This document shows, one piece after another, positions 5,419 through 25,452 of a stretch of DNA of 28,291 bases. The stretch lies in IMG/VR virus record IMGVR_UViG_3300015360_000156, positions 1-28,291 of that record; one strand, written 5' to 3'. Source of the stretch: a virus. Every line of letters starts with the position of its first letter. Position 1 is the stretch's first letter. A program made the position numbers and the translations under genes. The notes beneath the pieces are model-generated. The model had not been told where the DNA came from. It searched no databases and was given only the letters and a program-made list of their open reading frames with translations.

Positions 5419-5421
5419 GCC

Positions 5422-8275: not shown

Positions 8276-8446
8276 ATGAGCGCCCGCGCGAAGCGCGACG
8301 TGCTCAAGCGCCAGAAGGCCGCAACGCGAAACGCTGCGATCATCTCGGCGATCGGAAAGGGCACGCCAGTGGTCCAGATTGCGAAGACCTTCGGCATCAC
8401 GCCCCAAGCGGTCTACCAGCGTCGTCAGACTCTCATGCGCGGGTAG
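8276..8446 (+). CDS. Small helix-turn-helix protein
   Basis: The 56-residue product has a basic N-terminus (KRDVLKRQK) and a helix-turn-helix: IISAIGKGTPVVQIAKTFGI then TPQAVYQRRQ, the pattern of resolvase-type (HTH_7) and Sigma-70 region-4-like DNA-binding helices. No catalytic or dimerisation domain is present, so it is probably a small regulator or DNA-binding accessory. It begins 13 bases after the preceding stop, without a clear Shine-Dalgarno. The hairpin or palindrome at 8468-8494, just downstream and ahead of the polymerase gene, is a natural candidate target for autoregulation, but nothing shows binding. Confidence 0.65.
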   Translation: MSARAKRDVLKRQKAATRNAAIISAIGKGTPVVQIAKTFGITPQAVYQRRQTLMRG

Positions 8447-12320: not shown

Positions 12321-12771
12321 GCCAAGGATCGCCATCTGCCTTTCCGGTCGGCCCGCGGGTGATGATGACCGGAGAAGGGACGCCCCTATTCAAAGCGTCT
12401 TCGAACTGCGCCAGCGCGTCGTAAAACTGCGCCTTGGTCAACCGCTTTTGCTCGCTCCGGCGAGTCGGGTAGCCATGGGGGATGGGAGCGATGCGCGGGT
12501 CCATCCCCCTGTCATCTGGCCAGTACACGAGCCATTGCTTGTAGCGCCGCTTCACGACCCCGCGCCCGTCGTGCAGGTACTGCGCCCAGAAGTGGGAGTA
12601 GACCAGCTTGGTCACGGCATTCTGCACGTCCAAGTACAGGCCCGCCCGCAAGCCCCTCGAGGGCGTCAGCACGAGCAGCGCGTCATAGATCGAGTGGGCC
12701 AGGATGCGCCGCGCAATCCCCATGACCTTCTGGGGATCAAGCTCTGCGGCCACGGTCTTCCCCGCGCTCAA
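12199..12771 (-). CDS. Unknown protein downstream of the portal gene
   Basis: A 190-residue protein on the minus strand starting with TTG at 12769-12771, inside the 3' end of the portal gene. On the minus strand a GAAGGAAGG lies 5 bases upstream, which strongly supports the TTG start. The middle (about 15-120) looks folded and aromatic-rich, with RILAHSIYDALLVL, KLVYSHFWAQYL, YKQWLVYWPDD and KAQFYDALAQFEDAL segments. The C-terminus is Arg/Ser-rich. It is not a recognisable terminase, protease or minor head protein. Position after the portal suggests a head or packaging accessory role, but that is only context. Its 3' end overlaps the convergent small gene. Confidence 0.65.
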   Translation of the reverse strand: MSAGKTVAAELDPQKVMGIARRILAHSIYDALLVLTPSRGLRAGLYLDVQNAVTKLVYSHFWAQYLHDGRGVVKRRYKQWLVYWPDDRGMDPRIAPIPHGYPTRRSEQKRLTKAQFYDALAQFEDALNRGVPSPVIITRGPTGKADGDPWLTSTGMRMAEDAASLRASTRVATMFDLHLRRGEKSSAGGR

Positions 12772-14224
12772 GCGTGCCTTCCTTCGGGTCGCGCCCCGAG
12801 CCCGCCATAGGCTCGCGCATCTTCGACACGCCTTCCATGGCTTGGAGGTCGAGAGCTTCCGTCAAGGTCCTGAACCCGTTGCGGTGGCGCTCTTTGGCCT
12901 GAGGCACCGGCATCCCCGCAGCAAGCAGTTCCTTCGCTTGGGGGTGCTCGATGGGTTTCGTCTTGCCCAAGAACATCTCAGCGCTCACCGCAAGGCCCCC
13001 ATTGATCTGCGGGTTGCCCAGGGTGGCTGCGAGGATCTCGCTGATGTTCCGTTGGTGCGGGTGGATGCGCATGGCCTGGTACGTGGCGATGGCGTTGGGG
13101 CCCTCGTTGTTGGCCCCGACCTTGCCGGGCACTTGGATGCCCGCGAGCACGAGCGGCGTGCCCGAGGCCGTGGCAACGCCTAAGGCATAGCCCGTGCGCT
13201 TGTCGGAATACTGCTGCCCTTGTGGGTCGTCGATCGCGAGCCGTTCGATCTTCACCTCGATCTCCTGGCCTTCGAAGTTGTAGACCAGCGCCTGGTGCGA
13301 CTGGCCCAAGCCCACGATGCTCTGCATGTCCGCCTTGATCTCCAGCCACGCCTTCTCGTCGATGCGCCCGCCGGTGATGAACATCATGAACTCGGGCACG
13401 CCGCGGTTGACGTAGAAGTCCATCTCGTACTGAGAGACGGCCTTCATCAGATCCACGCTGGCGCCGCTGGCCACCCAATCGCCGCAGCCGTACCAGCGCG
13501 AGCGGGTTGTCGGGTGGCGAAGGTTGATGATCTCGCTGGAGTAATTGCCGTCCTTGTTATCCCTGCGGGCCAAGTGGCCGTGCGCGCGAGTGTGCTCCTC
13601 GGTCTCGCCGAATGCGGGGTAGACCGCCTGCGAGCCTGACACGGGGAACGCGTGGGTGCCGCCGTGCGCGTAGGACAGCAGGTACTTGCCCTCGTAGACG
13701 CGCACGATCTTCGAGATGGTGACGGCCTGCACGTAGTGGACGCCCACGATCTTGGAGGTTTTCGAGGGCCCCTCGCGCACGACCTCGATGAAGCCATCGC
13801 CGACCGTGAAGTAGTCGTCCACGGCCTGGTCGAGCACGGTCTGCCAGTTGTGTACTGCCAGGGGGTTCAGGGCGTCGTAGATTTCCTCGTCCGCGTGCCC
13901 GTGCCCTACCGCGGAGGTCACCGCGGTGCGGAGGCAGTTCGCTGCATACTCGTTGTCGTAGCTCATCTGCCGGGCCACCCCCCGGTTGATCGGCTCCTCG
14001 ACGATATCGCCAATGAGGTCCCCGAAAAGCTCGTCCGTCATGCCCGAGGCGGGCACGCCAGACCCGTCCTCGGATGCGGCCTGGATTTCGTGCAGCCCGC
14101 TGAGCAGGGATTTGATCTCTACCCTCCGCGCCTGTGCCAAGGGCGAGGTGTCGAAGATCGCCCCTAACTGGCGCGGGACACGGAAGGACTGGGGGGTCTT
14201 CGACTGCTGGTCGGGCGTTGCCAT
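12737..14224 (-). CDS. Phage portal protein
   Basis: A 495-residue protein forming, by family, the dodecameric ring at the packaging vertex through which DNA enters and leaves. Hallmarks of the HK97/PBSX-type portal (PF04860-like) are visible: an N-terminal helical region, a VGDGFIEVVRE strand near residue 145, then IINLRHPTTRSRWYGCG followed by VSQYEMDFYVNRGVPEFMMFITGG, matching the usual 'wyG.s....a......yn..ff.ngg.P.g.l' core. A long helical C-terminal region ends in a charged Arg/Glu/Gly-rich tail. It is encoded opposite to the protease, decoration and capsid genes, 61 bases from the protease start and divergent from it. Start ATG 14222-14224 has no clear Shine-Dalgarno and sits directly against the AT-rich element at 14225. 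Confidence 0.85.
   Translation of the reverse strand: MATPDQQSKTPQSFRVPRQLGAIFDTSPLAQARRVEIKSLLSGLHEIQAASEDGSGVPASGMTDELFGDLIGDIVEEPINRGVARQMSYDNEYAANCLRTAVTSAVGHGHADEEIYDALNPLAVHNWQTVLDQAVDDYFTVGDGFIEVVREGPSKTSKIVGVHYVQAVTISKIVRVYEGKYLLSYAHGGTHAFPVSGSQAVYPAFGETEEHTRAHGHLARRDNKDGNYSSEIINLRHPTTRSRWYGCGDWVASGASVDLMKAVSQYEMDFYVNRGVPEFMMFITGGRIDEKAWLEIKADMQSIVGLGQSHQALVYNFEGQEIEVKIERLAIDDPQGQQYSDKRTGYALGVATASGTPLVLAGIQVPGKVGANNEGPNAIATYQAMRIHPHQRNISEILAATLGNPQINGGLAVSAEMFLGKTKPIEHPQAKELLAAGMPVPQAKERHRNGFRTLTEALDLQAMEGVSKMREPMAGSGRDPKEGTLERGEDRGRRA
12777..12785 (-). promoter_or_regulatory. Shine-Dalgarno for the TTG-started gene after the portal
   Basis: The minus-strand sequence GAAGGAAGG lies 5 bases before the TTG at 12769-12771, within the portal coding end, and decides that unusual start. 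Confidence 0.75.
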
Positions 14225-14236
14225 TTGTAGATAAAA
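14225..14236 (+). promoter_or_regulatory. AT-rich element TTGTAGATAAAA, copy 1 (candidate late promoter)
   Basis: This 12-mer is repeated exactly at 23019-23030 and both copies fall in intergenic gaps. Here it lies 49 bases before the protease ATG, in the divergent region shared with the portal gene. It stands out against the GC-rich background. It heads the unit protease, decoration, capsid, terminator. The rest of the gap (14237-14285) holds a short GGCTA-TTC-TAGCC dyad at 14271-14283, just before the ATG. Confidence 0.5.
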
Positions 14237-14285
14237 ACAGACCGGGGGATTGTGCCGCCTATCGCGTCCTGGCTATTCTAGCCCC

Positions 14286-15344
14286 ATGCTGCCCAACAAA
14301 GCCACCCGGCGCGTCAAGAAGGCGCGCGTGCTGATGGTCTCCCTCGTGCCCCGGGGGAAGAACGAGCTGAACTCCCGGCTTGTTCTGGCCGATGGCGACC
14401 CCGACCACGCCACGCTGGAACTGGTCTTTGCGTCCCGCGGCGAGGAGCACGGCAGCGGAGAGCTTGAGGTCTACGCCTTGGCGATCCTGCCCGACGTCGC
14501 GACCCCCCTCATGGGACGAGACAAGCCGAGCGTGATTGCCGGCGCAGAAGCCGTCAAGGAGATGGTCGACACGTTCGGCCAAGGGGGCTTCAAGATCGAC
14601 TTGCAACACAACTTCGTCCAGGTCCCTGCGTCAAAGGCATACTTGACCCAGAGCCTGGTCGTCCAAGCGGGAGATGCCCGCTTTTCCGGGATCCTGAACA
14701 ACGCCTCCGGCCAGCCTGTGGACTCCACGGGCGGGTGGGGGCTGGTCATCCGGGTTCCCGACCCCGACCTTGCCGCGAAGTACCGCTCTGGTGAGTGGGA
14801 CGGCGTTTCCATGTACGGCTTCCTTCATCTGGAAGAGCCTGTCCTGGCCTCGAAAGACATGACCCCCGAAGAAATCAAAGAACTCATCGCCCAGGCGTTC
14901 GCTGCGCGTGCCGCTGCCCTGCCTGCCCCCCCGGTTCCGATTGTGGCTGAGGCGCCGCCCCTCGACCCCAACAGCCCCAAGGCCCTGCGTGAGCGTGCGC
15001 GCCACGCGCGACGCGAAGCCATCGTGGCCCGCTTGGATGCTGACCCGGAGAATCCGGAAACGCTCGAAGAGGTGGCCGCCGAACTCGAAGCCCTCGACGC
15101 TCCCGCACCGCGCAAACCCGCGGCCTCAAGTGCGGGCGAAGGTCCGGCTCGAGTGGGCGCTATCGCCCAGGGCCGACTGCCCGTGCCTGCGATCGTAGTG
15201 TTCCCGGGGGACCTCGTGCTTGCCTCGGACTCGTTCGGTCCTGACCAAGATGCGCAACTCGACCGTGCGGGACTGGCATACGGCCAGCTCATGCTGAAGG
15301 AACTGCGCGAAGACCGCGCAGAACGAAAACTCAACCTCCGCTGA
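14286..15344 (+). CDS. XkdF-like prohead protease with C-terminal scaffold-like domain
   Basis: A 352-residue protein. Residues about 55-180 match the pattern of phage serine protease XkdF (Peptidase_S78_2): VYALAILPDVATP, a helix with VKEMVDTF, then DLQHNF with H108, a G-x-S-x-x-DSTGGWGLVIRVPDPD strand region, and GEWDGVSMYGFL with S175. H108 and S175 are the likely catalytic pair. After about 195 the sequence becomes helical and Ala/Glu/Arg-rich (KELIAQAFAARAAAL, ARHARREAIVARL, EEVAAELEAL) with Pro linkers, as expected for a scaffold cleaved during capsid maturation. No separate scaffold gene lies before the capsid gene, which supports this reading. ATG 14286 is preferred over the in-frame TTG at 14250. 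No Shine-Dalgarno is visible. Confidence 0.7.
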   Translation: MLPNKATRRVKKARVLMVSLVPRGKNELNSRLVLADGDPDHATLELVFASRGEEHGSGELEVYALAILPDVATPLMGRDKPSVIAGAEAVKEMVDTFGQGGFKIDLQHNFVQVPASKAYLTQSLVVQAGDARFSGILNNASGQPVDSTGGWGLVIRVPDPDLAAKYRSGEWDGVSMYGFLHLEEPVLASKDMTPEEIKELIAQAFAARAAALPAPPVPIVAEAPPLDPNSPKALRERARHARREAIVARLDADPENPETLEEVAAELEALDAPAPRKPAASSAGEGPARVGAIAQGRLPVPAIVVFPGDLVLASDSFGPDQDAQLDRAGLAYGQLMLKELREDRAERKLNLR

Positions 15345-15360
15345 AAACTGAGGAACAACC

Positions 15361-15765
15361 ATGGCCATCCAACCGAAAGAACTCTACTCCGCCGCGCAGA
15401 CCACTTCCTTCTCGTTGCGGATGCACCCCCATCCCGACGGCACCAAACCGGCCCTGTTTTTCGCAGGCACCGCGTTGCTGCCCGTAGGGACGCCGCTGGT
15501 CAAGGACTCCAGCGCCAGCCAACTGCGCGCGTGGGCTGACGCCGACACCACGACCAACGCCATCGTCGCGTTCGTCTACCCCCTCGCGGTCCAACTTGTG
15601 GCGGGTGCGGAAGTCATCCACACCGTGATGCTCAAGGGCACGCTGCACGTCGACGACATCCCCACTCCTGCCGCCCAGACTCGCGCCACCCTGCTCACCG
15701 CATTGGCCACCCAGACGGTCCTCAACTCATTCCTCATCGAGGGGGTCCAACAAGCGGGCGTCTGA
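15361..15765 (+). CDS. Capsid decoration protein
   Basis: A 134-residue protein between protease and major capsid genes, the usual place for head decoration proteins that stabilise expanded capsids. Family-like features are GTALLPVGTPLVKD (a 'Gt.L..Gtvl' strand pair near residue 40), then AIVAFVYPLAVQL and VMLKGTLHVDDIP strands, all in a compact beta-rich protein. GAGGAAC 6-12 bases before ATG gives a good ribosome binding site. Homology could not be tested, and a head-stabilising rather than receptor-binding role is inferred from position. Confidence 0.65.
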   Translation: MAIQPKELYSAAQTTSFSLRMHPHPDGTKPALFFAGTALLPVGTPLVKDSSASQLRAWADADTTTNAIVAFVYPLAVQLVAGAEVIHTVMLKGTLHVDDIPTPAAQTRATLLTALATQTVLNSFLIEGVQQAGV

Positions 15766-15786
15766 TAGCCTGCTGGACACAACAAA

Positions 15787-16905
15787 ATGCCGACACTCAT
15801 TCCCGCAAACCTTCGCACCACGGCTCTTACGCCCGTAGTGAACGAAGAGCCCCCGGTGCCGAATTTCTTGCGCACGCTGCTGTTCAGCCGGGCCTCGGAG
15901 GTCCTCCTGACCACCGAGCAGATCAAGATCGAGCGCCTCGTCAAGACGCGCCGGCTGGCCCCCTTCGTCACGCGCGGATCTGCTTCGCTGATGGTTGGAG
16001 GCATCACGGAAAAGGCAGAGTACGTTGATGGGCCTTACATCAGCATCAACACGCCGCTTGAGCCTTGGTCCTTGATCGGGGCCCCGACGGTCATGCAGAC
16101 GGAGCTGTACCCCAGCGACGACGCCATGAACCGCCAGATCCGTCGGCGCATCCGGCAAACGCTGGATGTACTCACCCAATCGGTGGATGACCGCGAGGAG
16201 TGGATGATTGCCCAGCTCCTCACCGGAACCATCTCCTACTCGTCGATTGGTAACGACGCCTTCACCATTACGTTTCCTCGCCCTGCGGCGAACAACGTCA
16301 CGTTGTCGGTATTCTGGGATCAAGCGGTGAGCGGTGGCCTCGTGGGCAACGGCATCCCCACGAACATCAAGAGCTTTCAGACCATCATCTTCAACGCGGT
16401 GCAACGCAACGCGACGGACGTGATCCTGGGTTCGGAGGCCACTACCCACTTCCAGAGTTCCCCGTACCTTCTGGACCAAGGCACCAAGCTGGTGTCGAAC
16501 AGCCTTCTGTCCTTCGGGCAGAACCAGTCGCTCGTCAGCCTGTTCCAGACGAGCGGTGCGCGCTACCTGGGCGACCTGTTCGGCATCCGGTTCTGGTCGT
16601 ACACCCGGACCTTCATCAACGATGCAGGTGTTGAAACCGCCTTCATCCGTCCCAAGTACGCTGAAGTGGTGACCGCCAACCTCTTCGACGAGAACGTCTT
16701 TTACTACGGCGCAATCGCCGACTGGGACAACATGCTCCGCAGTTCGGGCGGCATCCGGAGCGCGGGCCTGGCCCCGACCCGGCGCTTCGCCAAGGCGGAG
16801 TTGCTCAAGGACCCGAGCGTGTACAAGGCGATGCTCCAGACCGCGCCTCTCCCCGTGGCCCGCCGGGCCAACGCCTACCTATCCGCAAAGGTCGTCTCAG
16901 GCTGA
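15787..16905 (+). CDS. Major capsid protein (E-family)
   Basis: A 372-residue protein, close to the length of the Phage_cap_E (lambda gpE-like) family, that builds the icosahedral shell. Diagnostic segments are KTRRLAPFV near residue 57-61, the ISINTPLEPW region, RRRIRQTLDVL helix, DRLEW-like DDREEWMIAQLL segment, and the C-terminal run LFDENVFYYGAIADWDN...GGIRSAG followed by APLPVARRANAYLSAKV. These are the classical conserved blocks of this family. It lies 21 bases after the decoration gene, and is followed by a strong intrinsic terminator, consistent with the need for very high expression from this unit. Confidence 0.9.
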   Translation: MPTLIPANLRTTALTPVVNEEPPVPNFLRTLLFSRASEVLLTTEQIKIERLVKTRRLAPFVTRGSASLMVGGITEKAEYVDGPYISINTPLEPWSLIGAPTVMQTELYPSDDAMNRQIRRRIRQTLDVLTQSVDDREEWMIAQLLTGTISYSSIGNDAFTITFPRPAANNVTLSVFWDQAVSGGLVGNGIPTNIKSFQTIIFNAVQRNATDVILGSEATTHFQSSPYLLDQGTKLVSNSLLSFGQNQSLVSLFQTSGARYLGDLFGIRFWSYTRTFINDAGVETAFIRPKYAEVVTANLFDENVFYYGAIADWDNMLRSSGGIRSAGLAPTRRFAKAELLKDPSVYKAMLQTAPLPVARRANAYLSAKVVSG

Positions 16906-16918
16906 TGCCCACAACCTC

Positions 16919-16933
16919 CGGTTTTTCAAACCG
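16919..16933 (+). other. Small hairpin between the capsid gene and its terminator
   Basis: CGGTTT at 16919-16924 and AAACCG at 16928-16933 form a perfect 6-bp stem with a TTC loop. There is no T-tract after it. It may protect the 3' end of the capsid mRNA or simply be an ancillary hairpin. Confidence 0.4.
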
Positions 16934-16962
16934 ACGCTAGCTTCCACAGGCTGGGACAACCT

Positions 16963-17000
16963 AGACCCCGACGAGCCCCCTCGCCGGGGTCTTTTTCTTT
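16963..17000 (+). terminator. Rho-independent terminator after the major capsid gene
   Basis: An 8-bp perfect stem (16963-16970 with 16985-16992) continues after one mismatch into four more pairs (CGAG/CTCG) and a CCCC loop. A T-rich tail starts at 16992 (TTTTTCTTTT). The stem is very GC-rich, so it should be strong. The rest of the gap, 17001-17068, has a purine patch (TTGGAGGTACAAGAG) and then a C-rich leader, with no clear promoter. Confidence 0.9.
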
Positions 17001-17068
17001 TGCCTCCGGATCGGGTTGGAGGTACAAGAGAAGCCCCTGAAACCCCTTCCCCCAACCCCACACCCCCA

Positions 17069-17500
17069 ATGACAAAGTACTTCATCATGCCCGGGCACTC
17101 CATCCTGCACCAGAGCGAGGTTCTGGCGGCAGGGACGGTGATCTCCGAGGACATCACGTCCAAGAAAAACCTTGCCGACATGCTCGAACAAGGGCGCATC
17201 GGGGTGTACTCCGAGCACGAGGAGGTCCGCAGCAAAGTGCAATCCGCACGCGACAACGAAGCGGCGTTGACTGGCACCGACCCTGCAAGCAAGCAGGCCA
17301 AAGCCAAAGACCAAGCCTCCAAGAAGCCCAAGGCCAAGAGCCCGTGGCAGCACAACCCCCAGGGCCTCGCGGACCGCTCGCTGGCCGAAATGCAGGCGAT
17401 CATCAAGGGGCAGATGGCCTCGCAAGGCGTCGTAGAATACGACCTGCCCGCCACCCACGAAGAAGCGGTTTCCATCCTTTCGGCCGACTACCAGGACTGA
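17069..17500 (+). CDS. Putative head completion/neck protein with a HeH-like C-terminus
   Basis: A 143-residue protein. The N-terminal part (about 1-50, MTKYFIMPGHSILHQSEVLAAGTVI) is beta-rich and folded. The middle (about 65-90) is a Lys/Ala/Gln-rich linker. The end carries SPWQHNPQGLADRSLAEMQAII and then ATHEEAVSILSADYQD, which resembles the helix-extended-loop-helix pattern (W-x-x-x-P-x-x-L...EA...L) found at the end of small phage head proteins. Position straight after the capsid gene fits a head-neck accessory, similar to lambda FI or a head-fibre protein, but the exact role is unproven. An in-frame start at 17000 is rejected, since it adds Pro-rich residues read from the leader. The C-rich leader has no Shine-Dalgarno. 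Confidence 0.6.
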   Translation: MTKYFIMPGHSILHQSEVLAAGTVISEDITSKKNLADMLEQGRIGVYSEHEEVRSKVQSARDNEAALTGTDPASKQAKAKDQASKKPKAKSPWQHNPQGLADRSLAEMQAIIKGQMASQGVVEYDLPATHEEAVSILSADYQD

Positions 17501-17506
17501 TTTCCC

Positions 17507-19357
17507 ATGCCCCTACCCCCCGGACTCAACACGTTTCAGATCGCTGGCATTTTGGCCAACTACGCGTCGAGCGCGGGGGAAGCGGTGAAGAACCTGGCCA
17601 TCAAGGCGGTGTCGTCCTGGCAGGGGCAGCCGATCCCCGAGCACGACCTCAACCTGGCCTTGGCGAATGCCTTGGCCTTGCTGGACACCGCGCGGACGTG
17701 GGTTAGCCACTGCCACGAATCCGCCATTGCGGGCCTAGCCCCGCCGCAGAAGCAAGAGCGGCTCGTTGGCATGAACGTGAGTGCCATCGTGAACTATGGC
17801 AACAACGTCTGCTTCAGCGACGTCATGCGCATGCACGATGCGTGGATCAGCCAGGGCAACGGGCCTTCAGGGCTCGGCAAAGCAGGCGCTTGGGACGACA
17901 CCACGAACCCCATCGCGATCAACTCCGAGGGCTACCCCACGGTGCTCGGACCGACGACCGATGGTCCCTACCAGCAGGTCGCGTTGACACTGCTCATGCA
18001 CGACTCCAACGGGGGCTTCCCCGCAGGCGCATACACCCTACTCTGGGAGGGCGCTGCGACGTGGGCTATCCGCCAAGGGGGCGGAGTGCTTTCCAACACC
18101 ACGCCCGGCCGGGCGGTGTTGACTCTCGCCGAGCCTATCAACGGAGGCATCGGTCTGGCGCTGACCAGCATGGACCCCGCCAACCCCCTGCGCAATCTCC
18201 GGCTGATCCTGCCGGGCATGGAGTTCACCTACCAGACCCAGCCCTTCAACCCGGCGTGGCTGGCGATGAACGCGCCGTTCTCGTGGTTGCGCACCATGGA
18301 CTGGCAGCGGACGAACAACTCGCCGTTGACCCACTGGGCGGACAGCGAGTCCGAAACCCGGCTGGGGTACGGGACCGCGAAGGGTGTCCCGCCCAAGTTC
18401 CTGGTGGACCTCTCCAAGGCCACGGGCAAGCCGGTGTGGGTCTGCATCCCCCACCTCGCCACAGACGCGTACGTCACGAGCTTTGCGACGTACTTGCGCG
18501 ACGGCAACCCCGGAGCGCGGTGGATGGTCGAGTACACCAACGAGTGTTGGAACGGCCAGTTTCAGCAGGCGCAGTATGCGGTAGCTCAGGCCCAAGCGGC
18601 GGGTATCCCAGGCCCCGAGTTCACGGCCAGCCAGAACTGGTACGCTCGCCGCGCGCGCCAAGTGTTTCAGATCTTTTCCGTGGTCTTCGGGCAAGGGTAC
18701 GCGTCCCAAATCGAGCGCGTCCTTTCGGGCCAGAACACGGGCGCCGAGTCGGCAAATATGATCCTGCCGTTCGAGTCCGCCCACCTGAGTGCCACGCACT
18801 GGTCAACGGCCCCCTACTTCGGGTCGTTCCTAATCAACGAGGCGAGTTGGGCGGCCACCTTGGCTAACCTCTCGGCGGCACAGGTCGTGGAGCAGTGCAG
18901 AGCGCAGGTCGCGGGCACCGCTGGCGGCAACCTGCCTGGGGTGGTAGCAGCCAGCGCAGCCGCGGCCGCCACCTACAACTTGAAGTACGTCACCTACGAG
19001 GGGGGCAACCATGCCTTCAACCTCGTGGGCCAGGCGGCCAACCTGGAACTCACGGCGCTGCTCACCGCTGCCGATAGCATGGGGACGATGGGGAACTGCT
19101 ATACGGAGTACCTCCAGATGCTGGACGACAACGGGTGTACAGCCCTGACCCACTACCACGACTGTCAGAAGTCAAGCAACTTCGGGTCGTGGGGAGCGAA
19201 AAGGTACATCACGCAGACAGATGCCGTGAAGTACAACGCCTTGGTGGGATGGGTGCAGCAATCGTTCAGCGCGCAGACGGCTGCGCTGTACCATGACAGC
19301 CAAAACGCCCGCACCACGGGCATGGAAGCGTTCATCCGCAGGACCCGCAACGTTTGA
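17507..19357 (+). CDS. Virion-associated glycoside hydrolase (GH-A clan-like)
   Basis: A 616-residue protein. Residues about 1-80 form a helical structural region unlike any enzyme (probable virion anchor). Residues about 85-590 look like a TIM-barrel glycosidase: a MNVSAIVNYGNNVCFSDVM first strand, a beta-rich insert about 160-250, FSWLRTMDWQRTNNSPL, GVPPKFLVDLSKATGKPVW, PHLATDAYVTSFATYL, and VEYTNECWN with N345-E346 as the likely acid/base. Then KYVTYEGG follows with E498 as the likely nucleophile. This pair of glutamates on strands 4 and 7 is the hallmark of GH-A enzymes, and YEGG matches a family of bacterial extracellular glycosidases. No signal peptide is present, as expected for a virion enzyme. 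It probably attacks host capsule or exopolysaccharide. Location between capsid and tail-tube genes is unusual for such an enzyme. The substrate is unknown. Confidence 0.75.
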   Translation: MPLPPGLNTFQIAGILANYASSAGEAVKNLAIKAVSSWQGQPIPEHDLNLALANALALLDTARTWVSHCHESAIAGLAPPQKQERLVGMNVSAIVNYGNNVCFSDVMRMHDAWISQGNGPSGLGKAGAWDDTTNPIAINSEGYPTVLGPTTDGPYQQVALTLLMHDSNGGFPAGAYTLLWEGAATWAIRQGGGVLSNTTPGRAVLTLAEPINGGIGLALTSMDPANPLRNLRLILPGMEFTYQTQPFNPAWLAMNAPFSWLRTMDWQRTNNSPLTHWADSESETRLGYGTAKGVPPKFLVDLSKATGKPVWVCIPHLATDAYVTSFATYLRDGNPGARWMVEYTNECWNGQFQQAQYAVAQAQAAGIPGPEFTASQNWYARRARQVFQIFSVVFGQGYASQIERVLSGQNTGAESANMILPFESAHLSATHWSTAPYFGSFLINEASWAATLANLSAAQVVEQCRAQVAGTAGGNLPGVVAASAAAAATYNLKYVTYEGGNHAFNLVGQAANLELTALLTAADSMGTMGNCYTEYLQMLDDNGCTALTHYHDCQKSSNFGSWGAKRYITQTDAVKYNALVGWVQQSFSAQTAALYHDSQNARTTGMEAFIRRTRNV

Positions 19358-19899
19358 ACCTACCCGTCTTCCAGACGCTCGAGGAACTCCGGTCGGGCTT
19401 GCGCTTGTCCGGGATCGAAGGCAAGGAAACGGACGCCCATGCGATCCTGTCCAACGCCATCGGCATCGCCAAAGCGCGGCTCGCAAGCTACCTCGGCGTC
19501 CCGCGCGTCGTGGAGCTTGCGGCCATGACCCCCGACCCCGCGGGGTTGTCCGAGGGGGGCATTCTGCGCTCCTTGGCTGCGATCCAGGAGGGCAGGCTCG
19601 TGCGCATCGAGATCCTCAAGACGCTGCCGGTGATGCTCTTGGACACATCTCCTGCCGCGCGCAGCGCATGGAACCAGGAATCGATCCTCAAGACGCCTGA
19701 CCTGTGGACGCTCATTGAAGACCTGGAGCGCGAGGTCTTCGGCAACTGGTCTCTACTGGCGGGCTCTGAGGTGCTGGGAGTGCCCGTGCCCGCCTACCGC
19801 TCCGCAGTCATCGGTCGCCTCAAGGGCTCTCCGCCCTACACTGCGGGCGATTCGCTTCTCCCCTTCTGGCCCTACATCTCCTCCGAGCCCCCCGTATGA
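19354..19899 (+). CDS. Putative head-tail connector protein
   Basis: A 181-residue protein starting with TTG at 19354 in a TTGA overlap with the glycosidase stop. GCAGGA about 10 bases upstream is a plausible ribosome binding site. It is mainly helical: FQTLEELRSGL, AHAILSNAIGIAKARLASYLG, GILRSLAAIQEGRLVRIEILKTLPVMLL, LWTLIEDLEREVFGNW. The helix ending AKARLASYLG resembles the first helices of gp36/DUF1320- or gp6-like connectors that plug the portal ring. The genomic slot (head-neck) agrees. The sequence match is too loose to choose between adaptor and other neck proteins. Confidence 0.45.
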   Translation: MNLPVFQTLEELRSGLRLSGIEGKETDAHAILSNAIGIAKARLASYLGVPRVVELAAMTPDPAGLSEGGILRSLAAIQEGRLVRIEILKTLPVMLLDTSPAARSAWNQESILKTPDLWTLIEDLEREVFGNWSLLAGSEVLGVPVPAYRSAVIGRLKGSPPYTAGDSLLPFWPYISSEPPV

Positions 19900-20339
19900 A
19901 CCGCTGGTACCCCACTGGCCTGATTGGAGTGCTCGAGAGCACCACAAGCCTCCAAGGCGACGTGCGCGCTGCCCTGGTGACAGCGGGCACGGTCTACAAC
20001 AGCACGCACACGGCGATGGCGGACCTGGCTTCGTCCGAGCTGCTGGCGACCAACTACGTGCGGGCGCAAACCGCGCTTGAGGTCGGCGTGCTCGGCAACT
20101 TCGTGTCCGTGTTCTTGTCTGCTCCCGCGGTGTGGGCAACACTGGGAGGGGCGACCAACTCCAACATCGGCGCGGTGGTGTTCTTCCTGCGCACGGGCTC
20201 GAATGACACCTTGAACCCCCTGCTGTTTTGGATCGACCAGACCCAGGGCTACCCCAACTTCCCGCTCTTGTCTGACGGGGCGGATTTCACTCTCAAAGCC
20301 CCCCTGTCCGCGGGCGGCCTGATCCGCGCGCCGTACTAA
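19896..20339 (+). CDS. Virion structural protein, neck or appendage
   Basis: A 147-residue protein starting by ATGA overlap. The pattern VYNSTHTAMADLASSELLATNY followed by beta-strands (GAVVFFLRTGS, PLLFWIDQTQGYPNFPLLSDGADFTL) resembles a widespread family of small phage structural proteins (an 'LV...Y.fn.ahtvl.di' N-terminus, then an FFl.tg and l....d.. C-terminus) that are often found near tail and neck genes. The function is unknown. It probably joins head, connector or an appendage. The stop is one base before the next start (TAAC-ATG), so co-translation is likely. Confidence 0.55.
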   Translation: MNRWYPTGLIGVLESTTSLQGDVRAALVTAGTVYNSTHTAMADLASSELLATNYVRAQTALEVGVLGNFVSVFLSAPAVWATLGGATNSNIGAVVFFLRTGSNDTLNPLLFWIDQTQGYPNFPLLSDGADFTLKAPLSAGGLIRAPY

Positions 20340-20340
20340 C

Positions 20341-21210
20341 ATGCCGCTCACTGCTGTCAACCTCGGCGCGTTCCCGGACGACGGTTCGGGCGACGCCCTC
20401 CGCACAGGCGGAGCGATCATCAATGCCAACTTTGACTTGCTGGGGGCGAAGGCGGTCATCTTCGCCAGCACGTTGGATCTCAGCGGTGGCGTGCGTCTCC
20501 AGCCGGAGACCACGCTTGTGGGCACGCTCAACATCGCACTGCCGGGCGCTCTTGAGCCTGGTGCGCGGTGCATCATGCGGCTGCGCGCGGGTCTCATCAC
20601 CTTGCCGCCCCGGTGCATCCTGATTCGGGGCAACTACATGCCCGACAGGCTGAACACCATCGTCTTCGAAGCGCTCGAGGGTAACTCGGCCGCGAACGGT
20701 ACGGTGACGTGCTCGATCTTCTCCAGCGTGCCCACGACGGTCACGGGTCTCTACTACAGGCAGGACGCGACGACGCAAGCCAACCTGTGGGGCGATTGGG
20801 GTTTGTTCATCAACACGCCTGCGGCAACCCCCGCAACGGCAGCGCAGTATTCGAGGCTGAACTTGCTCGAAGCCCAGGGGCGCGCGTCAGACAAGCACTT
20901 TTACTTCCGCCTCAAGTACGCCGACGGCACCAACATCGAGTGGCGGCAGTGGAGCAACCCGCTGAACCACTACAGCAAGGTGCTCGGCTACACGCCCATC
21001 CTGGGCACGGGGCAGATCGCGGGCTTTGGGGGCTTGAGCCGATCGCCCAGCCCCTTCCTCTACATGACAGCGCTCCCCGGAGTGGCGGACGGCAACGTCG
21101 TGTTGCGAGGAACCTTGGGCGGCACCAAGTTCGAGCTACCCGGAAGTGAGGGGCAGCCCGGGTTGACCCTTGCCAACAAGCTGGCCGAGCTTTCAATCTT
21201 CACGCCATGA
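20341..21210 (+). CDS. Fibre-like virion protein
   Basis: A 289-residue protein whose N-terminus, AVNLGAFPDDGSGDALRTGG followed by AIINANFDLLG, is the conserved 'NxGxxxNDGxGDxLRxAxxxINxNF' signature that begins many phage tail fibre and tail-associated proteins. The rest is beta-rich with a TVTGLYYRQD...GDWGLFINT segment and an ending that is Gly/Leu-rich. It ends in an ATGA overlap with the esterase gene, and the two probably form one appendage. It lacks a recognisable enzyme domain or chaperone region. The sequence cannot tell which part of the particle carries it. Confidence 0.6.
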   Translation: MPLTAVNLGAFPDDGSGDALRTGGAIINANFDLLGAKAVIFASTLDLSGGVRLQPETTLVGTLNIALPGALEPGARCIMRLRAGLITLPPRCILIRGNYMPDRLNTIVFEALEGNSAANGTVTCSIFSSVPTTVTGLYYRQDATTQANLWGDWGLFINTPAATPATAAQYSRLNLLEAQGRASDKHFYFRLKYADGTNIEWRQWSNPLNHYSKVLGYTPILGTGQIAGFGGLSRSPSPFLYMTALPGVADGNVVLRGTLGGTKFELPGSEGQPGLTLANKLAELSIFTP

Positions 21211-23018
21211 CCGACTCAACCCAGTTTCTAGGACTGGCCTCCGGCCTGCCCTTCGACACCCAAGAGATTCGGGGTGCGATGCTCGCGCCGTACGAGTTCG
21301 AAATGTGGCTGTGCGGCGGGCAGTCCAACTCCGCCGGGGCCCAGCTCCCCACGGTTGCTGAGATGCTGCCGGGGGGCAACTTCGCCCCGGTACCCAACCT
21401 GTTCATGGTTGAGGGAGAGGGCACCATCGTTGGCGCTCGAGCGGGGCACCACTTCGGGCCCATCCCCGGCGGCAACTTCTCGATAGGTGGGGTGAGTGCG
21501 TTCTGGGAGTTCTGCCGCTTGCGAGCGCAGATGTACCCTGAGCGAAAGATTTTGATGTGCTCGGCTGCGCTCGGGGGCACCAAGCTCGTCAACGCCCAGT
21601 GGGACGTTCCGCCCGCGACCTTGGGCGCCAACATCGCGAAGCTGCGGGGGATGCTTTCAACGGTCCTCAACAACTCGACAATCAAGGTCCACGTAGGTGG
21701 CGTGTGGTGGCAAGGGCACGAGTCGGATGGTTTCGCAGGCGAAACCAAGGCGACCTATAAGGCGCGTTACCTGGCCATGCGCACGTACCTGATTGACGGC
21801 CTCTCGGACGTATCCGGGCCGCTGGACGATCGCCCCTGGATGCTGGCCAGCTTCCACGACGATTGGATCGCCAACGGCGTTGCGCCGAACATCCTTGCCC
21901 CCGTCGACCCGGGTGTTCCCGCCGCGAACATGCGTGTGATCCACGAAGCGATCACCGAGATGTGCAGGGAGCAGACGAACTTCTATTACGTGCCGAGCAA
22001 CGGCCTCGTGCTGTTCGACACGATTCACTGGGACGCAGTTTCACAACGGCGCCTTGGCCGCAGGCTGTTCCGCGCGGTCAACCGCGCCCAGGCCGAGCTG
22101 CGTGGCAACCTGGAGTTTCGCGGGACTTGGGCCCCCAACGGGAACACGCCCCCGTCCTTCCCCGCCAACGCGCGCAAGGGGGACTTCTACACCGCGACCG
22201 CCCAGACGCTCGCGGGCTTGCCTGTGGACGGGTTAGAGGTCCTCGCCGGCGACATCCTCCTCGCCCTCGTGGACAACCCGCGCACCGACCTGTACGCAAA
22301 CCAGTGGCTTAAGATCCGGACCAGCAACGTCGAGTTCACGAGCAAGACGCTGGTTTCCGCAGGCGCCTTCCAAGTCAACCTCCAAAACACGGCACTGTTC
22401 GGCGGCCTTGGGACCTTCGCAGGCTACGGCATCCTGGACGTCATCTCCCCGTCTCATACATGGGCGCACGCTTTCGGCCGCTCGCTCGGGGCGGGCCTCC
22501 TTTTCGGGGCGAGCAACTACCCGACGGGCACCGACGCTTGGACGGTTTTTGCCCTGCGCGCCGGGGTCTTCCAGATGATTATGGACCTCCAAGCCTCGCC
22601 GGCGGGAGATCCTACGTACCGCATGCTGGTCCACCACACAGCCAGCGGGGCAGCGTTCACGCTGTTCAGCGCGGACAAGAACAACATCGAAGCGACCTTC
22701 AACCAAGCGGGCTGGGCTGCGGGGTTGCAGGTCTCCCGCGCGTCAGACACCTTCCCCACTTTCCTGCGTGGGCGCGCCAAGGTCGACATCGCTACCGACA
22801 ACACCACGAACCGCACGACCGTGCGCACCAATCCCACGAACGTGGAGGTCCACTCGGGCGCCACGGGGGGCGACGGCACCAAGATCGCGACCGTGCTTTC
22901 CAACGGGGACATGGAGCTGCACGTAGTAGGCCGGGGCATCATCCTCGCCTCGCCAGACGGCACCCGGTACAAGGCCACTATGGTTAATGGCGGCACCTGG
23001 GCAATCGCTCCGGCCTGA
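21207..23018 (+). CDS. Sialate O-acetylesterase-like (SGNH/CE6) virion protein
   Basis: A 603-residue protein starting in an ATGA overlap with the fibre-like gene. Residues about 28-300 form an SGNH hydrolase of the SASA/CE6 type: CGGQSNSAG with S40 as nucleophile, then GGTKL, then VGGVWWQGHESD (168-174) at the place of the usual WxQGExD motif, and D271-x2-H274 in FDTIHWD. The motif has an extra His before the Glu (QGHESD instead of QGESD). Such enzymes remove O-acetyl groups from polysaccharides. About 305-400 has a GTWAPNGNTPPSFPANARKG... segment typical of fibre attachment regions, and the rest is beta-rich and ends in IILASPDGTRYKATMVNGGTW. Together with the glycosidase gene it suggests a host with acetylated surface polysaccharide. 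It is followed by the second copy of the AT-rich element. Confidence 0.8.
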   Translation: MTDSTQFLGLASGLPFDTQEIRGAMLAPYEFEMWLCGGQSNSAGAQLPTVAEMLPGGNFAPVPNLFMVEGEGTIVGARAGHHFGPIPGGNFSIGGVSAFWEFCRLRAQMYPERKILMCSAALGGTKLVNAQWDVPPATLGANIAKLRGMLSTVLNNSTIKVHVGGVWWQGHESDGFAGETKATYKARYLAMRTYLIDGLSDVSGPLDDRPWMLASFHDDWIANGVAPNILAPVDPGVPAANMRVIHEAITEMCREQTNFYYVPSNGLVLFDTIHWDAVSQRRLGRRLFRAVNRAQAELRGNLEFRGTWAPNGNTPPSFPANARKGDFYTATAQTLAGLPVDGLEVLAGDILLALVDNPRTDLYANQWLKIRTSNVEFTSKTLVSAGAFQVNLQNTALFGGLGTFAGYGILDVISPSHTWAHAFGRSLGAGLLFGASNYPTGTDAWTVFALRAGVFQMIMDLQASPAGDPTYRMLVHHTASGAAFTLFSADKNNIEATFNQAGWAAGLQVSRASDTFPTFLRGRAKVDIATDNTTNRTTVRTNPTNVEVHSGATGGDGTKIATVLSNGDMELHVVGRGIILASPDGTRYKATMVNGGTWAIAPA

Positions 23019-23030
23019 TTGTAGATAAAA
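23019..23030 (+). promoter_or_regulatory. AT-rich element TTGTAGATAAAA, copy 2 (candidate late promoter)
   Basis: Identical to 14225-14236. It begins directly after the esterase stop and lies 32 bases before the next ATG. The gap continues with CACGTG at 23037-23042 and a C-rich leader. It heads the unit with the tail completion candidate and tail tube gene, which ends at the terminator at 24516. Confidence 0.5.
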
Positions 23031-23062
23031 GACTGCCACGTGCTTGTTCCCCCTACCCCCCG

Positions 23063-23575
23063 ATGCCTACACTGATCCTCAGCCCGCTCGCCACCTCCTT
23101 GGAGGTACTGCCGCCCTCTCTCGTGGGTGGGCAGGGGATCGAGACGACCTACGAGCTGATCCACAACGCTCTTTCCACTATCATCGCTTCGGTGCCCTTC
23201 TACGTTTTGGAGACGCAGGCCAACGGCAACGTGCGGGTGGGGCCCGAAACATCCCAACCCACGGTCTACTACAACGAGATCGCCTCGGCTTTCGGGCCCT
23301 CCCGAAACAGGACCTCGTTGATGCGCGAGCCCATCGTACGCCAGTGGCAGATTCTCCTCGAGTTCGCCACACGCGTCACCATCGAGCCCCTTGAGCTGGC
23401 CTTGTGCTTGAGGGTGCCCACGATCCCAGGCATCGCATCCATCAAGAGCAGCCCGCTGTTTGTCCAGATCGTGAAGTCCGAAGTCGAGCATCCCCGCGAA
23501 GAGCAATCCCCCCAAGGAACCTTCGCTCGCGTCCTAGTCGAAGTTTCCTCCGCCCGTTCCGCGAACCCCGTATAA
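23063..23575 (+). CDS. Putative tail completion/terminator protein
   Basis: A 170-residue protein directly upstream of the tail tube gene, the usual slot for the tail terminator that caps the tail tube before joining to the head. It begins LILSPLATSLEVLPPS and has a DNA-free globular look with helices (TTYELIHNALSTIIASV) and beta-strands (RQWQILLEFATRVTIEPLEL, FARVLVEVSS). Its length is in the range for gpU-like or gp17-like proteins. No decisive motif is visible, and the call relies on position. The leader is C-rich with no Shine-Dalgarno. Confidence 0.4.
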   Translation: MPTLILSPLATSLEVLPPSLVGGQGIETTYELIHNALSTIIASVPFYVLETQANGNVRVGPETSQPTVYYNEIASAFGPSRNRTSLMREPIVRQWQILLEFATRVTIEPLELALCLRVPTIPGIASIKSSPLFVQIVKSEVEHPREEQSPQGTFARVLVEVSSARSANPV

Positions 23576-23578
23576 CCC

Positions 23579-24490
23579 ATGTCTACGCTCCTCCCGGCCT
23601 TCGGCCAACAATCCCCGACGGCCATCAACCTTGGTCGAGGCAGAGCCTATGCCGGGGCCCTAACGGCCACAGGCGCGCTCGCCCCCTCTGGTTGGCGGTT
23701 CCTCGCCAACATGACGGCTCTCAACCTGACGCCCACGGTGGAGACCCTGGCGCGCCCCAACTACACCGCGGCCTTGAAGGTGATCGACGCCCGCATCCCT
23801 TTGTCGAACGAGTGGGCGCTGGGGTTCACCCTAGACGAGCTGAACATGGAGAACCTGGCCGAGTTTGCGCTCGGTACCTCTACCTCGTACGTGCTCCCGC
23901 TGAACCTCCCCGTGTCTGCCGTGACCATCAGCACCTCGCTGGTCAAGGGCTACGTCTACCAGACCTTCACCTCTGCCGGCGTCCACCTGCGCAGCTTCAC
24001 CGGCGTGCAGGTGGCTGGCGCTCCCCTCACAGGGCAGTACCAGCTCCTCGTGGAGATGGGGGACGGCGTGGCCCCGGCTCTTTTCGGCACGGCGGTGCCC
24101 CTGGTCCTCGGCACGTCCTACACATTCGACGCCGCGCGCGGTTTCATCACCATCCTTGCGAATGGTGCAGCCGTCACCGGTCGGCCGCTGCGTTGGAGTT
24201 ACACGCTGAACGCCACCCCGGGCATCTTGGCCGGAAACGCCTACCGCGTGCTCGGGCAGACCCGCTCGAGCTGGGAGATGGCGCTGTTCTTTGTCGCCGA
24301 GAACCCGGCCAACAACGACCGGCTGTGGAACTTGCAAGTCCACAAGACCCGGATGGTGCCGGACGGGGACTTGGCGCTCATCGGGGACGACCTGACCACG
24401 ATGGCCTTCACGGGCACCGTCGAGCGCAACACGATCCTGGGCTCGATCGCTTCGCCCTTCTTCCACTTCGAAGGCTGGGATCAAGTCTGA
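23579..24490 (+). CDS. Major tail protein (tail tube)
   Basis: A 303-residue protein, three bases after the preceding stop. INLGRGRAYAGAL at the N-terminus and a beta-rich core with FLANMTALNLTPTVETL..., long loops and repeated strands fit siphovirus tail-tube proteins, which stack as hexameric rings. It is followed by a strong terminator and then by the two tail assembly chaperone frames and the tape measure, the canonical order (tube, G, G-T, tape measure). The gene order makes this assignment firmer than the sequence alone would. No C-terminal Ig-like domain could be recognised with confidence. Confidence 0.75.
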   Translation: MSTLLPAFGQQSPTAINLGRGRAYAGALTATGALAPSGWRFLANMTALNLTPTVETLARPNYTAALKVIDARIPLSNEWALGFTLDELNMENLAEFALGTSTSYVLPLNLPVSAVTISTSLVKGYVYQTFTSAGVHLRSFTGVQVAGAPLTGQYQLLVEMGDGVAPALFGTAVPLVLGTSYTFDAARGFITILANGAAVTGRPLRWSYTLNATPGILAGNAYRVLGQTRSSWEMALFFVAENPANNDRLWNLQVHKTRMVPDGDLALIGDDLTTMAFTGTVERNTILGSIASPFFHFEGWDQV

Positions 24491-24515
24491 TCCGTGCCCC
24501 TGATGCTTTGAATGC

Positions 24516-24556
24516 AGGGCCTCCGGCGCTACCATTGCGTCGGAGGCCCTTTTCCT
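24516..24556 (+). terminator. Rho-independent terminator after the tail tube gene
   Basis: A perfect 10-bp stem (24516-24525 with 24541-24550) extends by a wobble pair and three more pairs (CGC/GCG) to leave a 7-base loop. A TTTT tract starts at 24550. It separates the highly expressed tube gene from the chaperone genes. Confidence 0.92.
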
Positions 24557-24586: not shown

Positions 24587-25210
24587 ATGAACAAGCTGCC
24601 CGAGTTCAAGACCACATTTATCGAGCGAGAGGTCGCAGGCGCGAACCTGCGGTTCTACCCCGCCCGTTTCAAGACCATCCAGCGGCTGCGTGCCGAGGGG
24701 GGTGCGCTGCTCTCCGCGGTCATGCAAATCACGGCTCCGGACGCGGACCCCGGGGGGTCCGAAACCATCGAGAACACCGACACGCACAACGGCGTGCACC
24801 AGGTAGTCAGCAAGATCTCCCCGATCCCGCTGGCGGTGCTTGAGCACCAGGAGCAGAAGCGCATCGATGCGGCCAAAGCCGTGTTCGATGCGTTCACGGA
24901 CGAAAGCGCCCGTGCGCTGATCTTCTCCCTCTTGCTGGATTCCCTGCGGCTGGCCGAGGATGAGCACAACATTGAGCGCCTCGCTGAGACGGAGGTGCCC
25001 ACGATTTTCGCCATGCTCGCTGGATGGGCGGAAGCCCAAGTCGGCATCCCTTTCGTCCAACAGGGGCTCGCGCGACTCCACGCAATGCGCGAAAAACAGC
25101 AATCCGCCCCGACGCAATCCTCCAAGACGGGGCCGAGTGGTTCGGGCTCCTCGACTCCATCAACACCCTCATCCGCAACGGGTACTCCCTCACCGACGTT
25201 GGAGGACTGA
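24587..25210 (+). CDS. Tail assembly chaperone (G-like frame)
   Basis: A 207-residue protein in the slot of lambda G, between tail tube and tape measure. It has a folded N-terminal part (KLPEFKTTFIEREVAGANLRFYPARFKTIQRL) and helical middle (AKAVFDAFTDESARALIFSLLLDSLRLAEDE, IFAMLAGWAEAQVG, GLARLHAMREK). From about residue 170 the frame reads as Ser/Thr/Pro/Gly-rich sequence. That is what one sees when a real coding frame is read out of frame, and the T-like frame is open there. The functional G form may be shorter, and a fraction probably shifts into the -1 frame. ATG 24587 is preferred over 24512, which lies in the terminator region. Confidence 0.75.
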   Translation: MNKLPEFKTTFIEREVAGANLRFYPARFKTIQRLRAEGGALLSAVMQITAPDADPGGSETIENTDTHNGVHQVVSKISPIPLAVLEHQEQKRIDAAKAVFDAFTDESARALIFSLLLDSLRLAEDEHNIERLAETEVPTIFAMLAGWAEAQVGIPFVQQGLARLHAMREKQQSAPTQSSKTGPSGSGSSTPSTPSSATGTPSPTLED

Positions 25211-25452
25211 CGCTCGACGACATCTCGCAAGCCGTAGCCAGCATGGAGAGGTTGCGGTGCAGAGAACTACTGGACATGTCACAAGCCTGTGGCTTGCCCT
25301 ACATGGAGGCAAAAGACGCCAGCACCTTCACTCGGACCCTGCGCGCGCAATCCGAGCCGTGGGTGCCCCCGGACGCATCTAAAAGCAAGAAACCCCTCGA
25401 CCTGCCGTCCTCTGAGGACATCCAACGTCGCCTTGGTGTGAACGTCTCCTGA
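25024..25452 (+). CDS. Tail assembly chaperone (T-like frame, -1 relative to G)
   Basis: The -1 frame relative to the G-like gene is open and gives a convincing protein from about 25096: TAIRPDAILQDGAEWFGLLDSINTL... to LGVNVS, 118 residues, ending one base before the tape measure start. The DGAEWFGLLD-like segment and length fit the T part of G-T fusions. An in-frame ATG at 25024 exists, but the residues before 25096 overlap the helical end of G and look like out-of-frame sequence. The likely product is therefore a G-T fusion of about 288 residues. A separate start remains possible. Confidence 0.65.
   Translation: MGGSPSRHPFRPTGARATPRNARKTAIRPDAILQDGAEWFGLLDSINTLIRNGYSLTDVGGLTLDDISQAVASMERLRCRELLDMSQACGLPYMEAKDASTFTRTLRAQSEPWVPPDASKSKKPLDLPSSEDIQRRLGVNVS
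25090..25097 (+). other. Probable -1 ribosomal frameshift site for the G-T fusion
   Basis: C-GAA-AAA-C in the G frame. The Lys AAA can slip by -1 onto AAA within the five-A run (25092-25096), giving MREK then TAIRPDAIL. The preceding GAA does not re-pair well (GAA to CGA), so this is not a classical XXXYYYZ heptamer. Other sites in the overlap up to 25210 look poorer. Confidence 0.4.

Follow-up and report, generated by a model that had tools for sequence, protein, structure and literature searches.

The late genes of phage P2 are switched on by the activator Ogr at four promoters (PP, PO, PV and PF), through the site TGT-N12-ACA (PMC3931495; PMC5694545). In Smp131 a single 18-bp site is common to the promoters PP' and PO' and serves both divergent operons (PMC3931495). 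The middle and late promoters of the Thermus phage P23-45 belong to the extended -10 class (PMC7403470). The locus described here is part of a 28.3-kb fragment of a tailed-phage genome (28,291 nucleotides, the whole stretch of DNA analysed, hereafter the window). As in P2, one upstream site appears to be common to the promoters of separate structural operons, the portal-side operon diverges from the protease/capsid-side operon with the site between them, and the tail operon has its own copy. Unlike in P2, the site is a 12-mer in the window and a palindrome in its relatives, it is accompanied by -35/-10-like hexamers, and it is linked with the protease strand alone. The likeness to P23-45 consists of a distant similarity of the DNA polymerases and of a host polymerase that would likewise be redirected by phage factors, but the window differs in having a -35-like block and an upstream site. 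In T7 a promoter (phi10) precedes and a terminator (T-phi) follows the major capsid gene, and the capsid gene of the window is likewise found between a putative promoter and a terminator.

The proteins of the window matched families of the Casjensviridae type rather than those of P2 in the searches made. The families of the capsid protein (capsid E, phrog_29) and the tube protein (phrog_807) also occur in the Casjensviridae (Chi-like siphoviruses, e.g. Stenotrophomonas phage Suzuki), at about 20-30% identity, and the gene order protease-decoration-capsid-connectors-tail terminator-tube-terminator-chaperone-tape measure is the same. In the Casjensviridae isolates (Suzuki and others), however, the portal gene is in line with the capsid genes, whereas it is inverted in the window and its relatives.

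The 12-mer TTGTAGATAAAA has exactly two sites in the window (Table 1). As the preliminary description had claimed, both are intergenic and oriented as the downstream genes, on the plus strand; the scan of the whole 28 kb revealed neither copies scattered through coding regions nor a third site with at most one mismatch. When the window was dinucleotide-shuffled 300 times, no repeated 12-mer with at least ten A/T bases turned up, and only five patches in the 28 kb contain at least 11 A/T in 14 bases, two of which are the 12-mer copies. Chance is therefore a poor explanation for the pair, in line with the earlier judgement that such a repeat is improbable. The 12-mer shows no clear dyad by itself. 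Copy 1 touches the start codon of the portal gene (14224) on the other strand, and the gap is therefore divergent. A DNA-level search of 50,697 phage records yielded no match. The 12-mer combined with TTGTnCC was matched 28 times in viral contigs, in AT-richer unrelated DNA, and these matches were taken as chance; besides these there was a near-identical copy in the contig L003.

An alignment of the flanks had been proposed earlier, although the collinearity itself had been missed. Without gaps, the two copies are collinear over 55 nt, and a longer consensus was obtained, with successive blocks that match at 12/12, 4/13, 10/12 and 9/18 positions. Beyond the 12-mer 23 of the 43 bases are identical (P ~6.5e-4). 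The third block, TTGTkCcNCCTA at +25, is identical at ten of its 12 positions (P ~1.5e-4), and TAnnnT is present at +49 in both copies. Outside the module the similarity is that of the background (9/40 upstream of the 12-mer, 10/45 after +55). The window has 97 pairs of exact 12-mer repeats, and among these the downstream similarity was higher only in longer coding duplications.

The arrangement TTGTkC-N18-TAnnnT corresponds to the layout of sigma70/A promoters, and the spacing is identical in the two copies. The hexamers thus have a spacing within the 16-19 nt range of a host promoter and stand at a fixed distance from the upstream site, although they are weak in comparison with the consensus (three of six positions for the -35, four of six for the -10). 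The earlier remark that no sigma-70 pattern could be placed holds for a simple sigma70 scan of the window, which detected neither promoter, but not for the aligned copies, with their -35-like block, 18-nt spacer and -10-like block. Since such hexamers follow each copy, the 12-mer would be located near -55, the place of an activator site or an UP element. The most plausible reading of the two copies is that each forms the upstream part of a putative promoter of about 55 bp, and that these matching promoters serve the capsid genes and the tail-tube genes, respectively.

Table 1. Positions of the promoter-like elements, structural genes and terminators in the window.
Feature	Position	Strand	Basis or remark
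Portal gene	12737..14224	-	phrog_12; transcribed away from the protease operon, a conserved trait of the clade
Upstream element copy 1, TTGTAGATAAAA	14225..14236	+	roughly -61 to -50 relative to the predicted start
-35-like hexamer TTGTGC, copy 1	14250..14255	+	alignment of the copies; TTG at the homologous offset in relatives
-10-like hexamer TATTCT, copy 1	14274..14279	+	end 6 nt 5' of the protease ATG
Capsid maturation protease (S78-type)	14286..15344	+	PF14550 above cut-off
Head decoration protein	15361..15765	+	tblastn with relatives and synteny
Major capsid protein E	15787..16905	+	phrog_29, PF03864
Intrinsic terminator after capsid gene	16964..16991	+	followed by T-tract; -19.6 kcal/mol, z -4.6
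Upstream element copy 2, TTGTAGATAAAA	23019..23030	+	directly after the stop codon of the esterase/fibre gene (gene end 23018)
-35-like hexamer TTGTTC, copy 2	23044..23049	+	alignment of the copies
-10-like hexamer TACACT, copy 2	23068..23073	+	predicted start ~23080
Tail terminator/completion gene	23123..23575	+	GTG 23123 probably the start, rather than ATG 23063
Major tail tube protein	23579..24490	+	phrog_807
Intrinsic terminator after tail-tube gene	24516..24550	+	followed by T-tract; -31.6 kcal/mol, z -6.6

The gene assignments by profiles, alignment and tblastn bear out the two units that had been proposed: copy 1 heads protease-decoration-capsid and copy 2 heads tail completion-tail tube, each of which ends at a strong terminator. 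Across the clade, terminators were found after 25 of 83 capsid or tube genes versus seven of 127 protease, decoration or tail-terminator genes. Being ordinary and clade-wide at these places, they need no special explanation. The start listed for the protease ORF (14250) coincides with the -35-like hexamer itself. For the tail terminator gene the GTG is the likelier start, since the conserved domain starts only near residue 24 in the longer form; if the ATG were the true start, the -10-like hexamer of copy 2 would fall within the ORF. In front of the likely GTG start the sequence ACCTCCTTGGAGGT (23092-23105) forms a small hairpin, with strings resembling an anti-Shine-Dalgarno and a Shine-Dalgarno sequence. 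After the tube gene, overlapping frames (24587-25452) resemble a frameshift-made pair of tape-measure chaperones, as annotated in phage Suzuki, and the tape measure gene contains three tandem repeats of 111 nt (26131-26504), a multiple of three that corresponds to 37 aa each. Elsewhere in the window two different genes, one for a DUF5906 protein and one for a PD-(D/E)XK nuclease, contain a 51-nt stretch of 92% identity (2772-2822 and 5038-5088).

Scans for close relatives with the capsid, polymerase, tube and portal sequences returned L003 alone or nothing, so that alignment-based queries were needed. These yielded 59 non-redundant uncultivated contigs (806 kb; ~30% portal identity). L003 is a 99.8% copy of the window, and the next closest contigs, with ~30-37% protein identity, are too distant for a phylogenetic test of the 12-mer. 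A search of bacterial genomes for a prophage or host link gave nothing useful, with one weak Planctomycetota bin (23%). Wherever both could be placed among the relatives, the portal gene is on the strand opposite to protease-decoration-capsid. A motif search in 25 portal/protease gaps of the relatives, with the window left out, identified the palindrome GATAcATgTATC (log-likelihood 154.6, versus 69-77 in shuffled gaps), which in many of these gaps occupies the same slot as the 12-mer of the window. On the protease strand TAnnnT is found 51-54 nt from the first base of the palindrome in 9 of 20 cases (at most seven in 1000 shuffles); TTG is concentrated at 28-31 nt on that strand (P 0.003). The portal strand showed no peak, and the distance from the palindrome to the portal start mostly varies (1-36 nt).

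A held-out set of 24 gaps, one of them similar to a training gap, contained the core palindrome in ten (0.8 expected), and with the correct -10 spacing in four (0.07 expected). In the whole 806 kb ten complete promoters (palindrome, TTG and TAnnnT) were found, all of them by position portal/protease-gap copies, versus 0-3 in controls with shifted spacing. Some relatives' gaps lack the palindrome or have another dyad. In the gap of L138 the palindrome GTCTCACTCTGAGAC stands in place of GATAcATgTATC, another sign that the site sequence is exchangeable. The 12-mer as a variant of GATAcATgTATC was rejected, since it does not match the palindrome profile (~5 bits). It fills the palindrome slot without resembling the palindrome, and the slot is therefore conserved with a different sequence in the window lineage.

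It appears probable that a sequence-specific regulator acting near -55 assists host RNA polymerase at both promoters, which would then be activator-dependent. The regulator, probably phage-coded, would bind the 12-mer and help the polymerase to start at the weak -35 (TTGTkC), N18 and -10 (TAnnnT). The first base of the protease-decoration-capsid transcript would be ~14286, and that of the tail terminator-tail tube transcript ~23080. Given the short distance between the -10-like hexamer and the ATG, which would place the first base at or near the A of the ATG, the protease mRNA is probably leaderless. The intrinsic terminators would end both units, which would favour abundant capsid and tube mRNA, with the level of each set on its own. 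To judge from the gene content alone, both units may be expressed late in infection.

The 12-mer might instead be an UP element, contacted by the alpha subunits of the host RNA polymerase with no activator involved. The UP-element zone overlaps ~-61 to -50, where the 12-mer is predicted to lie, and the 12-mer is among the few A/T-rich patches in GC-rich DNA. UP elements tolerate variation, however, yet the 12-mer is identical at all positions while the adjoining 13 bases differ at most of theirs, and the palindrome in the slot of the relatives is what is expected of a site for a dimeric protein; we therefore regard the UP element as unlikely. That a phage-coded or modified RNA polymerase, or a T4-like late sigma factor, reads the 12-mer as a core promoter seems quite improbable. 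The 12-mer is indeed the most conserved block and the sigma70 hexamers are weak, but the conserved blocks run to +54, far past a core element at +0. T7 relies on a single-subunit polymerase of its own and on a continuous promoter of 23 bp; in contrast, neither the window nor any of 29 relatives, most of them incomplete records, yielded such a polymerase (PF00940), with a positive T7 control. The T4 late octamer TATAAATA is present in neither window copy, and no sigma region 4 above the cut-off was found in the 29 relatives. The earlier promoter-system claim is thus well supported as to the shared promoters of the capsid and tail-tube operons, but not as to the phage-coded or modified polymerase; its alternative, an activator, survives, with hexamers at fixed spacing in both copies and in the relatives.

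The palindrome slot, and with it the 12-mer, could also serve as an operator, acting as a repressor site or switch on the portal gene or on the two divergent genes together. The site is close to the portal start, and by inspection a TA could be part of a portal -10 in several phages. Yet it is the distance to the protease -10 that is fixed while that to the portal start varies, and copy 2 of the window has no divergent gene, which makes an operator very improbable. Hardly credible is that the copies represent a shared RNA leader element, a recombination scar without a promoter role, or coincidence: copy 2 does stand at the edge of the inserted fibre cassette, but both copies have -35/-10-like blocks at fixed offsets, and the architecture in the relatives matches.

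For the activator-dependent promoters favoured here, no regulator family (HTH_7, HTH_3, HU-like or Ogr) was found to be shared across the clade. The Ogr/Delta zinc-finger (PF04606) was absent from the window and 19 relatives, with a positive E. coli control. Since the records are mostly fragments, genes for Ogr/Delta or a single-subunit polymerase may lie outside them. The window encodes a helix-turn-helix protein of 56 aa (8276-8446), HTH_7-like just under the Pfam cut-off and lacking in most clade members searched, which is a candidate regulator of both promoters. It also encodes an HU/IHF-like DNA-binding protein (PF00216; 248-562), which is absent from the 15 relatives searched. TGT-N12-ACA is found at neither window copy of the 12-mer. 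Because the site sequence differs from that of P2 and no Ogr/Delta gene was found in the records searched, the promoters are not of the P2 Ogr type; by analogy they are best regarded as working like the Ogr-dependent late promoters without belonging to them.

In the window the fibre genes (20341-23018) are located between the connector genes and the tail terminator-tube genes, whereas in some relatives, L041 and L042 among them, the connector and tail terminator-tube genes are contiguous. Among the phages examined a second full promoter was found only in the window. No convincing second copy of the element was found elsewhere in the relatives: a scan of 29 whole records gave one extra match, discounted since a reversed control pattern gave two. 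In L129 a high-scoring palindrome (3221-3236) upstream of a tail-terminator domain may be fortuitous or may correspond to copy 2 of the window; as a parallel of that copy it was rejected, being inside an ORF of 374 aa and without the -35/-10 spacing. In L145 a terminator and a weak palindrome stand between two tandem tail-tube genes (4457-5500) and the chaperone gene downstream of them. As copy 2 stands after the inserted fibre genes, and the corresponding genes are contiguous in L041 and L042, we infer that the promoter was copied to the tail operon, where it would restore transcription to tail genes that the fibre insertion had cut off from the head genes.

A possible but tentative extension is that this diverse clade arrived independently at a P2-like switch for its structural genes, in which host polymerase and a regulator not related to Ogr act at one dyad between the diverging portal and capsid operons. 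In the lineage of the window this site would then have given way to a new 12-mer, perhaps together with a new regulator such as the 56-aa protein, and once the fibre genes had been inserted the entire promoter would have been duplicated in front of the tail operon.

The findings provide a sequence-defined architecture of putative promoters for the structural genes of a clade in which no cultured member was found here, and suggest how a promoter can be copied when a structural operon is broken up by inserted genes. In P2, too, late control is common to the divergent portal and capsid operons; this parallel suggests that the arrangement is found repeatedly among unrelated phages, and the arrangement may matter for the stoichiometry of head assembly.
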